Shown piece by piece: positions 13,064 to 37,800 of a DNA stretch of 64,000 nucleotides; the stretch's first letter is position 1; each line of letters begins with the position of its first letter. This DNA is from Dacryopinax spathularia (lineage: Eukaryota > Basidiomycota > Dacrymycetes > Dacrymycetales > Dacrymycetaceae). Made by a program: the position numbers and the translations under genes. A model generated the notes under the pieces. The model was not told the DNA's origin and searched no databases. It worked only from the letters and a program-made list of their open reading frames with translations. Location: positions 2,666,001 through 2,730,000 of the forward strand of contig JBBPFI010000002.1 in the NCBI GenBank assembly GCA_037974965.1, written 5' to 3'.

Positions 13064-13852
13064 CGTCGACTTCGTCGACCGCTGTTGTCAACAACCAAAT
13101 TCGACAACCACGCGCATTCGCTGCATTCCGGCCCTCAGTGGCAGTGCCCCAACAAGCGCCCGCAAAAGCCGGGCGCTTACTATCCTCTCCGGGCTCCGAG
13201 CTGGATTAGGATGCTCGCGAAGAAGCGTTCATAAAATCCCTCAATATTATTCACTAATTCCCGCCTTGTTCTGCTTACTTCTTGAAAACAGCGAGGGATT
13301 ACTGCTCGCTTAGATTAGATAACCATCCCGGCCTTTCTAGCACACTCGTCCACACATGCTCCGTATGGTCACCTGCCCGCCTCACACGAGGCGACTTCCA
13401 ACAGCATCTGAGGCATTTCCGCCCTATCTCCCTCTCCCAGCCAGCGCTCCAACATGATGGCTTCTCATCGGATCCTTGACAAAGGAAATGGACCGATATC
13501 CCTCTGATCGGGGAGCGGGGGATATATCGGGAAAGGCTTGAGGCATTTATGCCGTCCCTTCATTGATCACGCAGTACTGTACTGTGCACCGCGGCCCCGC
13601 TGAATGGGACAGGAGTAGCCATCCACAAAATCGCGCAGAGCTTGCCTTTTCCGGACAACTGCAGCTCGGGTGTACCGCCGGCATCTGTCTGCCCGCCGTC
13701 TGCACGCTGCGGTCCTAGAGCAGCCACCTCTCCTCCCTCGACCCCTCTGAAGTGTATATAAACCCCCCTCTCCTCCCCCCTCCAACTCCCCATCCCGCTC
13801 CAGAAACTCCAAGTCTAACCACCAAACCCAAACCAAGCTCAAACCAATCCCA
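13064..13852. other. Divergent promoter region between SHE9 and the metallothionein gene
   Basis: 789 bases shared by two genes transcribed away from each other. It contains the metallothionein TATA element. I looked for clear copper-regulator sites and did not find one I would defend. No further gene seen. Confidence 0.5.
13755..13762 (+). promoter_or_regulatory. TATA box of the metallothionein gene
   Basis: TATATAAA about 91 bases upstream of the ATG, followed by a C-rich stretch and an A/C-rich leader. Strong TATA elements are typical of inducible fungal genes. Confidence 0.65.
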
Positions 13853-14109
13853 ATGGCTGTAAGTCTTCCTCGTTCAGGATATGAGAGAGCGATAGCTGAT
13901 TGGATGTTGCGGGGGACGCAGGCCACCACCGTTGTTATCGTTGACGCTCACTGCGGCGAGTCCCAGTGCAACTGCGGCGAGTCTTGCGGCTGCGCTGTAC
14001 GTCCCCATTCCCTCTCCCTCTCCCTCCCCCCTTCCTCCAACCTCTCTCCTGCTCCGTCCTTCTGTGAAGAAGCTAACCACTCGCCTAGCCCAACGAGTGC
14101 AAGTGCTGA
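13853..14109 (+). CDS. Copper-type metallothionein, 33 residues, three exons
   Basis: Three exons: 13853-13858 (only MA), 13922-13996 and 14089-14109, separated by introns of 63 bases (GTAAGT to CGCAG) and 92 bases (GTACGT to GCCTAG). The joined product is 33 residues and ends in TGA. Its second half holds seven cysteines spaced C-x3-C-x-C-x3-C-x-C-x4-C-x-C (HCGESQCNCGESCGC, then PNECKC). Seven cysteines in a 25-35 residue protein is the hallmark of the fungal copper metallothioneins known from Neurospora and Agaricus. It would bind Cu(I) in the cytosol for detoxification and storage (inference). The N-terminal segment ATTVVIVDA has no cysteines, which is unusual. Both introns carry branch-like motifs (CTGAT, CTAAC). 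Exon phases agree exactly, which supports the model. Confidence 0.85.
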
Positions 14110-14760
14110 ACGCCTTCCTCCCACTCCCACTCCCGGCCCGGCTCGAATGGTTCCCTAGTAGGAGGACAGACGTATCTCAATCATTGAACTGGCATGTCCC
14201 TCGAGATTGCGCGTGAGGTCTTGGGATGTGTAGCTGGCACCTGTCCCCTTTTATGTTGTTGTTGTTGTAATGGTCAAGAAAATGTGGTTGATGGTGTTGT
14301 GCGATGTGTGTGCGGTGTCCCCCACCTATTACCGGCTTTTTCGACACGCAGCGGAGGGGTAGAGCCGAGTCCCGGCCGTCGAGTCGATGTGGCTAAACGG
14401 ATTGAGCTGGTTTGCTCAGCTCTGCGCCTCCAATAAGCACGAGTATATGTTGAGTGAATGCTGTTAACAAGGGAGCGATGCCCTGAGCAAGGTGGATACA
14501 CCGCCTCGTCGCCGGACAAGCGCCCCAGCAGGTGAAGCACGGCCGGCGCTTATTCGCGCCTCACGCGTTTCAGTTTCTCGACCACGGTTCACACCACCGC
14601 GTTTCGAAGCGCTGCAGGACATCTATTGCCTCATTATGAGCGCTGTCATGTTCTTCTCCTCTCTATCGACAGCCACGCAGGCGTGCGCACTCCTACTGTA
14701 CTTCCATACCTAATACTGTAATCTTGCTGTCTTCGAACATCGGACATCGTACCATCTGGG
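14110..14760. other. Spacer between metallothionein and isochorismatase-fold genes
   Basis: 651 bases. It holds the metallothionein 3' untranslated region, with a short TGT repeat near 14256, and the promoter of the next gene. No supported gene. Confidence 0.5.
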
Positions 14761-15646
14761 ATGGTCGCCCAACTCTCGCTTTCCCTCCAAGGTCCCCCAT
14801 CATCCAAGTACGTCTCTCCCCCTTCTCCTCCCCTCCCTCCTTCCTTCCTCCCTACTCGCCTGCATTGGAACTCGAGCTGATGAACAGAATAGTATCATCG
14901 AGTCGACGCTCGACCTGCGCACAACAGCGTTCATATTCCTCAACCTCCAGACCTCATACCTCGACCTCCTCCCCCGCTCCCGCGCTCACGCACTCCTAAT
15001 GTCCGCATTTATGCTCCGCGACTCCTTGGACCAGCGACATCAACAGCCAATAATAGTGCATGTCGTCTCGCTCACCCTTGCCGCCCCCGTCTTTCCAACC
15101 TCTACAGCGCCGAGAGAGGGCGAGCCGGTGTTGGCCAAGGCAGGGTTGTCGGCGTTTCACCATACGGGGTTGGAGAGACATTTGAGAGAGAGAAGAGTGG
15201 AGAGGGTGTATTTGTGTGGAGTTAGCTCGTGGGGCGAGATGGTCGCTACTGCCCTCGCTGCACGCGACATAGTAGGCGAGAAAGTCTGGGTCATAGAGGA
15301 TTGCTGGGCGGAAGTGGACGACGAGCTGGGTGAAGCGGGGCTGGACCTGCTCGCGGGTCTTGATATGCTCGTTGACGTGGCGCATATCGAGGGGCTGAGG
15401 GAGGCCGAGCCCTCGCCCGGAGAAATAGAGAGGGAGAAGAAAGACAGTGCTGTTAGGAGGGAGCTGGAGAGAAGGGAGAGGAAGAAACAGGAGAGGGAGG
15501 AGAAGGAACGGAGGTTGAGGGCGGAGGGGGACAGCTTGAGTAGACATAATGCGATCGTGAGGTCGCCCAGGGCGCACGAGACGGGGTTTGGGGAGAAGAT
15601 TGCGAGTAAGGGGGCGTTGTTGTTGAGGCATAAGCATAGCGTATAG
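14761..15646 (+). CDS. Isochorismatase-fold protein, probably without hydrolase activity
   Basis: Two exons (14761-14807 and 14893-15646) give 266 residues. The fold is recognisable. TAFIFLNLQTSYLDL matches the usual opening strand LLVIDMQNDF. LAKAGLSAFHHTGLERHLRE matches the Lys-containing strand and helix. VERVYLCGVSSWGEMVATAL plus VWVIEDCWAE match the nucleophile loop and last strand. Family enzymes use Asp, Lys and Cys. Here the Asp position is Asn (LNLQ), the Lys is kept, and the Cys position holds Glu (GVSSWGE). A charged Arg/Glu/Lys helix (about residues 175-220, e.g. RRELERRERKKQERE) extends the C-terminus. I infer a regulatory or binding role rather than catalysis. The intron site was chosen because only that acceptor keeps the frame. 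Confidence 0.8.
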
Positions 15647-34885: not shown

Positions 34886-37800
34886 ATGGCGCTCTCTTCC
34901 CAACCTACCCCCCTGCACGTCCTCTATACTCTCAAGGACGTACGCGGCTTCCGCCAGCTGCTGGATGCACGACAACAGGCGAACAGCTCGCATTCCGGAG
35001 CAGGGGGATCCGTTCCGCGCTCATGGGGCATATCATCGCTCGGTCCGATAGGAAGTGAGGTGAACGTGCGCGATGGGTTCGGGCGGACTTTGCTGCATAT
35101 CGCTGCGGCAAACCTGGAGGGTTGGGCACTTGAGTGGGTGCGGATCTGCCTCAATCAGAAAGGGGTCGACGTCAATCTTCAAGATCCCGAGAGCGGATGG
35201 ACCGCTCTTCATCGAGCATTATATGTCGGTAACCTGCACGCCTCGAGGCTTCTGATGGAACGCGCGGATACCGACCTCAAGAGCAAGGACCACGAGGACT
35301 TCACGCCGTGGGACGTCTACAACTTGACGGTGGACGGGACGTATCCGGACTTCGATGCGCCATACGGGACGATGCTGTATACCTGGGGTGTCAACCGGTG
35401 CGTGTGATGGCCTAGTGCTGGCTAGCATACAGCTGATGCCGTTATCAGGAACTTCACCCTTGGTCTTGGTGATGGCGACGACCGGACCTACCCAGAGCCC
35501 ATCAACTTGTCTCGCCTCACACCGCCGTCCAGTGCAACGGGTAGTGCGCGATTCCAGACCATCGGCGTATCGAGCATCGTCATGTCCCGCCTGCATACTG
35601 CCATCGTCACCTCTGAACCGAGGGCCAATATCCGCCTGTGCGGATTCGGCTCCGGTGGGCGCTTGGGCGCGGGTTCGCACACGCAGTACTCTTTCGCGCC
35701 TCTCAAGGATTTCGCACATACAGTTGCTGCGCTCGCGCTGGGCCAGGACCATACCCTCGCGCTGACCACGTCGGGCGAAGTGTACTCATGGGGCTTGGGT
35801 CGTTTCGCACAGCTTGGCTACGTCATTGAGAAGGACGATAAGGGTGCTGCAGATGGCGAGCAAGTGCAGTACAGCCCGAAGAAGGTGTTTGGACCGCTCA
35901 AGGGGAAGGAAGTTCGAGGCATCGCAGCTTGCAAGACCGCATCAGCAGCATGGACGTACGAAGGTCTCTATACGTGGGGAACCAACTCGGGCCAACTCGG
36001 GTACGACAGACACGCGGTGCCTGCACAGGTCTCGCCTCGCAGGGTGACCGCTGTCGCACAAGGCGTGCTTGATGTCGCCCTTGCGGATAACGCCATGTGC
36101 GTCCTACTCGACTCGCAAGACGTGCTCTGTTTCTGGAACGACACCCACTTCAAGGTCAACTTCCCCTCCCAGAAGTTCCGGAACGAGAGCTCGATCTATC
36201 GACCGCCGCAAGCAGTCGTCAAAGTTCTCGTCAAGAAACTCGTCGCATGCGAGAACACATTTGTCGCGCTCAGCACATTCGGCGACGTATTCTTCTTCGC
36301 GCTTCCTGAGCCCGGAAGTGCGGAGGGCGATTCGGAGAAATTTGTCTTGCGGCCTACGCGGATCTGGGCAACCCGGAGCGCGGAAAGTATGGCGAAGGAT
36401 GTCGGGCTAGGAAGCGATGGGACGGTCATCGTCTGTACCGCGACAGGGCATGTCTTCGTTCGACAACGCACGACGAAGCAAGGTGGTGATGGTCGACGAT
36501 CACTTCCTGGCCAGCAAGCGCCACCGGGACCGGGCAATCTGAAGAGCTTCAAGTTCCACCGCGTTCCGTGGTTGCAACGTGTTATCAAAGTCTCTGCGAA
36601 CAGCACTGGCGCATTTGGTGCTATCGCGGTCGATGCCGTTCCGAAGCCCATCACGGTATCCGGTCCGACTGTCGGGGAACAGCTGGTCAAAGGTCTGCCG
36701 CACCTGCGCCAGCTAGCGGAGAAGCGCGGGAATGGGAATATGCTGCTGTCGCCCGTCTCGCCCGCCGTTGAAGATCTGTCGCCAATCAGCGTACCGGATG
36801 AGGATGACGAAGATGGAATTTCTGAAGCTGTCGAACTGAAGATCGCTTCCCAGATCGTCGAGGCTTATCTGGATTTGGAAGAAGCAAAACTGTCCCAAGT
36901 CACCAAAGCGGATCCCATGCCAGCTCCCCACCTGTGGGGCGCCGACGTCAGCATTGAGGTTGCCGGATGTACGATCTTCGCCCATCAAGCGATCCTCGCT
37001 GCGCGCAGCTCCGTATTCAAAGCTGCGCTTTCTGGTCAAGCCTACAACGGCCCGGAAGTCTCTATCGCCCTCGCGAAGAATGCAAAAGGTCCAGTCACGA
37101 AACTGAATATCCGCTTGCTTACTCGACCAAGCACTGTAATGCAAGAGCTGCAAGACTTGCCGCTTGTCTTCCATCCTCTTTCCATCTTGCTGCTCCTTCA
37201 ATATCTGTACTCCGATAACTTGCCGTCTCTTTGGGATCGACACCTTGGCGAGCGACTTCTCCGGCGATATCAGAAGTTGAAACTGCACGCTTCTCGGCTA
37301 CGAGGGGAAGTGTTGACTCTTGCCCGCGCGCTTGAGTTACCAGCACTCGAAGCGTTCATGAACGCAGCGACATACGTGCGACGAACACCAGTCCCTTCGC
37401 TTGTTCGCGATCTTTCACGACTCTTCTCGGAAACACAGGGGCAGAAAGCGGGCCACGACATCGTCCTCCAGTTGAAGGATCGTCGTGTATACTGCCACTC
37501 AATTGTCCTGCGCACACGAAGCCCCTTCTTTGCCAGTATGTTCGATGACGAGGAATGGATGGCGGACCGGTGGTCGACTGAACGTGTTGTCGACGTGAAC
37601 ATGAGCCACTTAACATGGGAAGTTATAGCTCCGGTCTTCCGGCACATCTATGAGGATGCTGGAGTGGAGCTGTTCGACACTGTTGTCAGAGAGACGGTTG
37701 ACGAATTCATTGACTATGTGTTCCATGTCATGGCTGTTGCTGTGAGCATCTGCTCACCCATGTATTCCTGACTTTGTACTGATCGCGTTCTGCAGAGCGA

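Follow-up and report, generated by a model that had tools for sequence, protein, structure and literature searches.

A short three-exon metallothionein gene of the heptaCys type, one of four paralogues in a basidiomycete genome

The DNA analyzed here, a 64-kb stretch referred to as the window (C2:2666001-2730000 in a 29.2-Mb, 24-contig genome), contains a gene that we assign, with a probability of about 0.92, to the functional short heptaCys metallothioneins, as one of four paralogues in the same genome. The assignment is a prediction from sequence, with membership of the group being judged by the published motif, length and exon description rather than by aligned sequences. The heptaCys type is already known from Agaricomycetes; the four-gene family and an invariant histidine are modest additions to it.

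Gene structure and product

A sequence-only reading of the window had proposed a three-exon metallothionein gene, with a first exon of two residues and a last exon of six, encoding a 33-residue product with seven cysteines. The exons, the junctions and the product were all reproduced in our analysis:

13853-13858, plus strand: exon 1, ATG GCT (Met-Ala), 2 codons
13859-13921, plus strand: intron 1, 63 nt, phase 0, GTAAGT...CAG
13922-13996, plus strand: exon 2, ATTVVIVDAHCGESQCNCGESCGCA, 25 codons, five of the seven cysteines
13997-14088, plus strand: intron 2, 92 nt, phase 0, GTACGT...CTAAC...TAG
14089-14109, plus strand: exon 3, PNECKC and a TGA stop, 6 codons, the last two cysteines

Joining 13853-13858, 13922-13996 and 14089-14109 gives MAATTVVIVDAHCGESQCNCGESCGCAPNECKC, the seven cysteines of which are spaced C-x4-C-x-C-x3-C-x-C-x4-C-x-C and span the last 21 residues (13-33), rather than the last 20 as first counted; Phe, Trp and Tyr are all absent. 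The cysteine core encoded by exon 2, C-x4-C-x-C-x3-C-x-C, occurs once in the 64-kb window when both strands are considered, and none of 100 dinucleotide shuffles contains it, which argues for more than a chance arrangement. Intron 1 (13859-13921) is a multiple of three in length and open in frame, such that an unspliced message would still read through into exon 2. A translated intron 1 was considered and rejected, because the length of this intron differs among the paralogues described below (63 nt here versus 56, 54 and 50 nt).

Four paralogues with a common exon plan

DNA and protein searches of the host genome located three further loci, MT2, MT3 and MT4, the window gene being MT1:

MT2: contig C2, minus strand, ~31 kb before MT1 and outside the window
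MT3: contig C1, minus strand, ~7 kb from MT4
MT4: contig C1, plus strand, ~7 kb from MT3

Protein queries with MT1, MT4 and MT3 (the last being one residue short) each recovered the identical set of four loci and nothing else at E values up to 10; since only the best candidates were scored in these searches, four genes is a lower bound. The paralogue products are MAAIITVVVDAHCGESQCNCGDSCGCAPGECKC (MT2), MAAANFILVDAHCGNSDCKCGDSCGCAAGNCQCGKK (MT3) and MIQNIELVNAHCGEADCKCSDTCGCDPGSCNCK (MT4), with MT1, MT2 and MT4 having 33 residues and MT3 having 36. Exon 1 consists of one or two codons in every gene (ATG GCT also in MT2 and MT3, ATG alone in MT4), exon 2 is exactly 75 bases in all four, exon 3 measures 21-30 bases, and all of the introns are in phase 0, their lengths being 63/92, 56/55, 54/54 and 50/51 nt for MT1 to MT4, respectively. 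Frames and splice sites are intact, as are all of the cysteines (28/28 over the four genes), which are in register. Judged by these comparisons, the window gene is real, given that three further copies have the exon plan, the 75-base exon 2, the phase-0 introns and the cysteine register in common with it.

Conservation, splicing and codon use

The exon-intron structures were drawn from splice signals. A CTRAY branch-point-like site is present in range in seven of the eight introns of the four genes, versus 334 of 5000 random GTR...AG spans. Exon 2 is conserved above the level of the introns in all pairs of genes, whereas exon 3 is clearly above the introns only in the MT1-MT2 pair. For that pair, the identical columns amount to 82% in exon 2, 90% in exon 3 (19 of 21 bases), 51% in intron 1 and 38% in intron 2; for the other five pairs, the corresponding values are 68-75% in exon 2, 37-60% in the introns and 47-63% in exon 3, with MT1 exon 3 matching those of MT3 and MT4 in 47 and 54% of columns, respectively. 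Local alignment of MT1 with MT2 yields three separate blocks, one at the TATA region and one at each of exons 2 and 3, and every other pair yields a single block, within or around exon 2.

Cysteine is encoded by TGC at 28 of 28 positions in the four genes, compared with 16 of 22 in a set of five long open frames from elsewhere in the window, and glycine by GGC at 15 of 15 positions, compared with 51 of 129; this extreme codon preference suggests high expression. Silent-site statistics are equivocal, neither favoring nor contradicting a coding role, the test being blunted by the ~18-21 silent sites available and by the codon preference. The Nei-Gojobori dN and dS values have dN well under dS for MT1-MT2 (0.111, 0.628) and the two roughly equal for MT2-MT3 (0.274, 0.295) and MT3-MT4 (0.300, 0.322); the values for MT1-MT3, MT1-MT4 and MT2-MT4 are 0.291 and 0.558, 0.396 and 0.545, and 0.341 and 0.748, respectively. 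For the cysteine part alone, pN exceeds pS in three of the six pairs.

Relatives outside the genome

A profile made from the four products, with the unspliced frame as its first row, matched two of 41 candidates. One (E 1.2e-7) is the hypothetical protein FRB95_007476 of Tulasnella sp. JGI-2019a (P0111), which has 80 residues and ends MLTIFEAPVDAHCGNSNCSCGESCGCKAGECKCTK; the other (P0112, E 2.1e-3) is an ENA protein that carries IVDAHCGNSDCKCSDA. The last 35 residues of the Tulasnella protein align throughout with the window product, with the seven cysteines in register and V-D-A-H-C-G kept; it differs in being 61% identical and in having 45 extra preceding residues in the public gene model, which probably starts 45 residues too early. 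The expectation that a gene of this kind is easily missed by annotation was thus borne out in the form of easy misannotation, the Tulasnella protein being filed as an 80-residue hypothetical protein of which the metallothionein is the last 35 residues. According to PMC4755600, misannotation of metallothioneins is frequent owing to their short exons.

Over six sequences, V9, A11, H12, C13, G14, C18 and C20 are invariant (P0112 ends before the remainder). From this invariance the histidine immediately before the first cysteine is, within a small sample of six, a fixed part of the unit. The 48-residue unspliced frame had no candidate in the protein database with three 5-residue words in common, and profile A1 gave 0 matches to solved structures. 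A search of the genome with the bare C-x-C-x3-C-x-C codon pattern was uninformative, with 994 matches versus 382 for a reversed control, those listed being mostly TGC/CTG-type repeats.

Placement of the host

The host had been referred to as a Tremellomycete; a tree of one gene, in which it stands next to the sampled Agaricomycetes and apart from the sampled Tremellomycetes, makes this doubtful without disproving it. The RCC1/BTB-type ORF at 35426-37771 found at least 108 proteins among the 7995 word-richest candidates scored, the ten best matches all being from basidiomycetes, with 41-42% identity and 98-99% coverage of the query. In a first, rapidly built tree containing this ORF and 35 of the 108 proteins, the host lies beside Agaricomycete rows (support 86). 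In a careful tree of 27 rows, from which nine others, including two Agaricomycetes, had been dropped as long-branched or odd, its sister group comprises 17 named Agaricomycetes plus one further row (support 99/96 for the joining fork), the host branch being long and Dacrymycetes and Wallemiomycetes being absent from the rows. A constrained tree that united the host with Tremella, a pair of Cutaneotrichosporon rows and two further rows, a group chosen after the first tree had been seen, was rejected (AU p 0.017). We suggest that the host may be Dacrymycetes-like.

Assignment to the heptaCys metallothioneins and alternative readings

The hallmark of AcMT orthologues, as given in PMC12508003, is a C-terminal heptaCys motif, C-x4-C-x-C-x2,3-C-x-C-x4-C-x-C, which all four paralogues match. 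Short forms in that account have up to 35 residues (32-35) and long forms up to 59; MT1, MT2 and MT4, at 33 residues, are within the short-form limit and MT3, at 36, is one residue over it. AcMT2 is described there as having three exons and introns of ~50 bp, and the genes reported here have three exons in each case and introns of 50-63 bp, except for MT1 intron 2 at 92 bp. AcMT2, PiMT1, AsMT2, LbMT1 and CcMT1/2 resemble the window gene in their C-terminal motif, short-form length and room for a cysteine-free N terminus, AcMT2 also in its three exons, and many of the published species likewise have several paralogues. Apart from the length of MT3, the difference from the published group is that the host is perhaps not an Agaricomycete, the 17 peptides of the heptaCys table in the same source being from Agaricales and Boletales, i.e. 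all from Agaricomycetes.

The cysteine-free N-terminal extension had been considered unusual, a view that does not hold: such a stretch is present in every one of the four paralogues and in the Tulasnella protein. A 21-residue C-terminal motif within proteins of 32-35 residues leaves ~11-14 residues before it, so that an N-terminal stretch is expected, and the 12 cysteine-free residues of the window product fit the heptaCys group rather than being odd. The window product itself has no Pfam or NCBIfam match; with Pfam PF05522 (Metallothio_6), MT3, MT4 and the Tulasnella protein score 20.2, 19.2 and 15 bits, respectively, all under the curated cut-off of 23 bits, and MT1 and MT2 have no match. 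In the literature searched, which mostly excludes subscription papers, the term 'heptaCys' occurred only in PMC12508003, and Dacrymycetes or Tremellomycetes combined with metallothionein gave nothing on-topic as judged from the listing; such absence is weak evidence.

An alternative that is compatible with the heptaCys assignment, although unlikely, is that the gene is the single-unit relative of the giant tandem metallothioneins found in Tremellales (Cryptococcus CnMT, Tremella TmMT) and represents the primordial module that preceded their amplification. The TmMT unit CXCX3CSCPPGXCXCAXCP, as reported in PMC4755600, holds C-x-C-x3-C-x-C-x4-C-x-C with six cysteines in register, and has Pro-Gly in the x4 gap, as do MT2 (APGE) and MT4 (DPGS). 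The seventh cysteine, however, is on the opposite side of the unit, the grouping of the host with sampled Tremellomycetes was rejected as noted above, and no tandem homologue was found in the host genome by single short protein queries. TmMT and CnMT are also much longer in the same account (122-257 residues, with several units, and 10 exons for TmMT), whereas the window product is one 33-residue unit and so lacks the several repeated 7-Cys units per protein that define the Tremellales tandem type.

The cysteine spacing had been read as that of fungal copper metallothioneins; the metallothionein part of this claim stands, but the spacing is that of the heptaCys group and not the CxC-x5-CxC-x3-CxC-x2-C of the Neurospora and Agaricus proteins (PMC4755600). 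It is accordingly very improbable that the product is a member of Binz-Kagi family 8, i.e. a copper-specific metallothionein like those of Neurospora and Agaricus bisporus, extended at its N terminus. The Neurospora crassa and Agaricus bisporus copper metallothioneins are likewise very short proteins of fungal hosts, with seven cysteines and CxC pairs, and C-x-C-x3-C-x-C is common to both motifs. Nevertheless, they have only two residues besides Met before the first cysteine, and the Neurospora protein as query had no match in the host genome at E values up to 10, although a 26-residue query is a weak one.

Even less credible is that the product is some other small cysteine-rich peptide, be it secreted, antimicrobial or redox-active, to which its shortness, cysteine content and slightly hydrophobic N terminus would be suited. 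The usual signal peptide is longer than 12 residues, which makes the 12 N-terminal residues too few for one; moreover, the cysteines are mostly in CxC pairs and MT1 has none of the three aromatic residues named above. The exact match to the motif of functionally tested metallothioneins (PMC12508003) also argues against such a peptide. A chance arrangement or a dead copy without a coding role, for which the equivocal silent-site statistics leave some room, is the least probable of these readings in view of the four intact copies with their complete set of cysteines and the failure of the shuffles to yield the core.

Proposed function and wider implications

As a short heptaCys metallothionein, the window product would be a highly expressed cytosolic peptide, the seven thiolates of which would enclose a few soft metal ions, i.e. 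Cu(I) and Cd(II), and perhaps also Zn(II), in a small cluster. Such a cluster would serve in buffering or detoxification, keeping free copper and cadmium low. In PMC12508003, all 17 tabulated heptaCys peptides are marked as protecting yeast against cadmium and all 17 against copper, with five of 17 protecting against zinc. By analogy with the Cryptococcus units, for which Cu5-(7-Cys) clusters are described (PMC4755600), the stoichiometry would be approximately four to five Cu(I) per peptide. The invariant histidine just before the first cysteine may act as an additional metal ligand. Published heptaCys paralogues differ in induction and metal (PMC12508003) and, by analogy, the four paralogues probably split their work by metal or between constitutive and induced expression.

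Annotation easily overlooks metallothioneins encoded by minute exons or places their starts wrongly, and the four-gene family provides a clean calibration example. Should the host lie outside the Agaricomycetes, the heptaCys family would be older than its published range, and the single unit would offer a point of origin for the long tandem metallothioneins that basidiomycetes possess. In its fullest form, which we put forward only tentatively and consider doubtful, this proposal is that the four genes represent a heptaCys lineage of an adjacent class (e.g. Dacrymycetes), marked by an invariant V-D/N-A-H-C-G with the histidine as an extra ligand, and that the three-exon gene predates the Agaricomycetes and was the source of the long and giant basidiomycete metallothioneins.

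Promoters, flanking regions and candidate regulators

Two elements flank the window gene:

13755-13762, plus strand: TATA box, TATATAAA
14280-14293, plus strand: AAATGTGGTTGATG block, common to the 3' flanks of MT1, MT2 and MT3

The TATA box, placed 91 bases upstream in the sequence-only reading, is present, and 90 bases separate it from the ATG. Each of the four genes has a TATA-like box, the distance from the beginning of the box to the start codon being 98, 94, 89 and 87 bases in MT1, MT2, MT3 and MT4, respectively, with the patterns for MT3 (ATATATAT) and MT4 (CATAAATA, which is non-canonical) having been written after the sequences were viewed. The region 13748-13806 (60 columns) aligns with MT2 at 75% (E 5.7e-4).

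Scanning of 600 bases of promoter for each of the four genes used motifs that included the AP-1, ZRE, HSE, MRE and STRE types, and none of the copper, zinc and stress motifs scanned was above background in all four promoters. The AP-1, ZRE, HSE and TTTGCTC types were in none of the four; TTTNNGCTG was only in the MT2 promoter; three of the four had a single MRE-like TGCRCNC, against a background of 0.73 per 600 bases; and STRE was present in three. All four contained a loose T-rich GCTG motif, with only MT2 (6 overlapping matches) exceeding the background of 3.39. The words TCGTCCA (4/4 promoters) and CCGGCTCGC (3/4) are common to the promoters, the chance of such sharing, before correction, being 5.6e-4 and 3.9e-5, respectively.

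The core of the AAATGTGGTTGATG-like block, GTGGTTRATG, lies 83, 140 and 174 bases past the stop codon, after an A-rich stretch, in three of the four genes. Shuffled sets were as good in 1 of 200 cases for 14-base words and in 9 of 200 for 12-base words, and genome-wide the block is found, with at most one mismatch, at 13 places, versus 6 for a control pattern. It might conceivably be a 3'-UTR or 3'-end element, or a remnant of paralogy.

Flanks were compared using stop-to-stop frames of at least 90 residues (the window, L039 and L040 against L041 and L042, and L039 and L040 against the window). The sole match, of 26 residues, was between frames antisense to the MT2 and MT3 metallothionein exons; thus, no common neighbor gene was seen at this frame length, which genes with short exons would escape. 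The downstream neighbor of the window gene, an ORF at 14714-15646, matches the isochorismatase domain in Pfam with 50.7 bits and has no evident link to metals.

Copper fists are the kind of domain by which fungal copper regulators bind DNA. The genome encodes two copper-fist domains, compared with 0 of 14 control genomes; the pair (L048 and L049) is at ~43-50 kb on C10, ~7 kb apart and in opposite orientation, and the two are candidate copper regulators.
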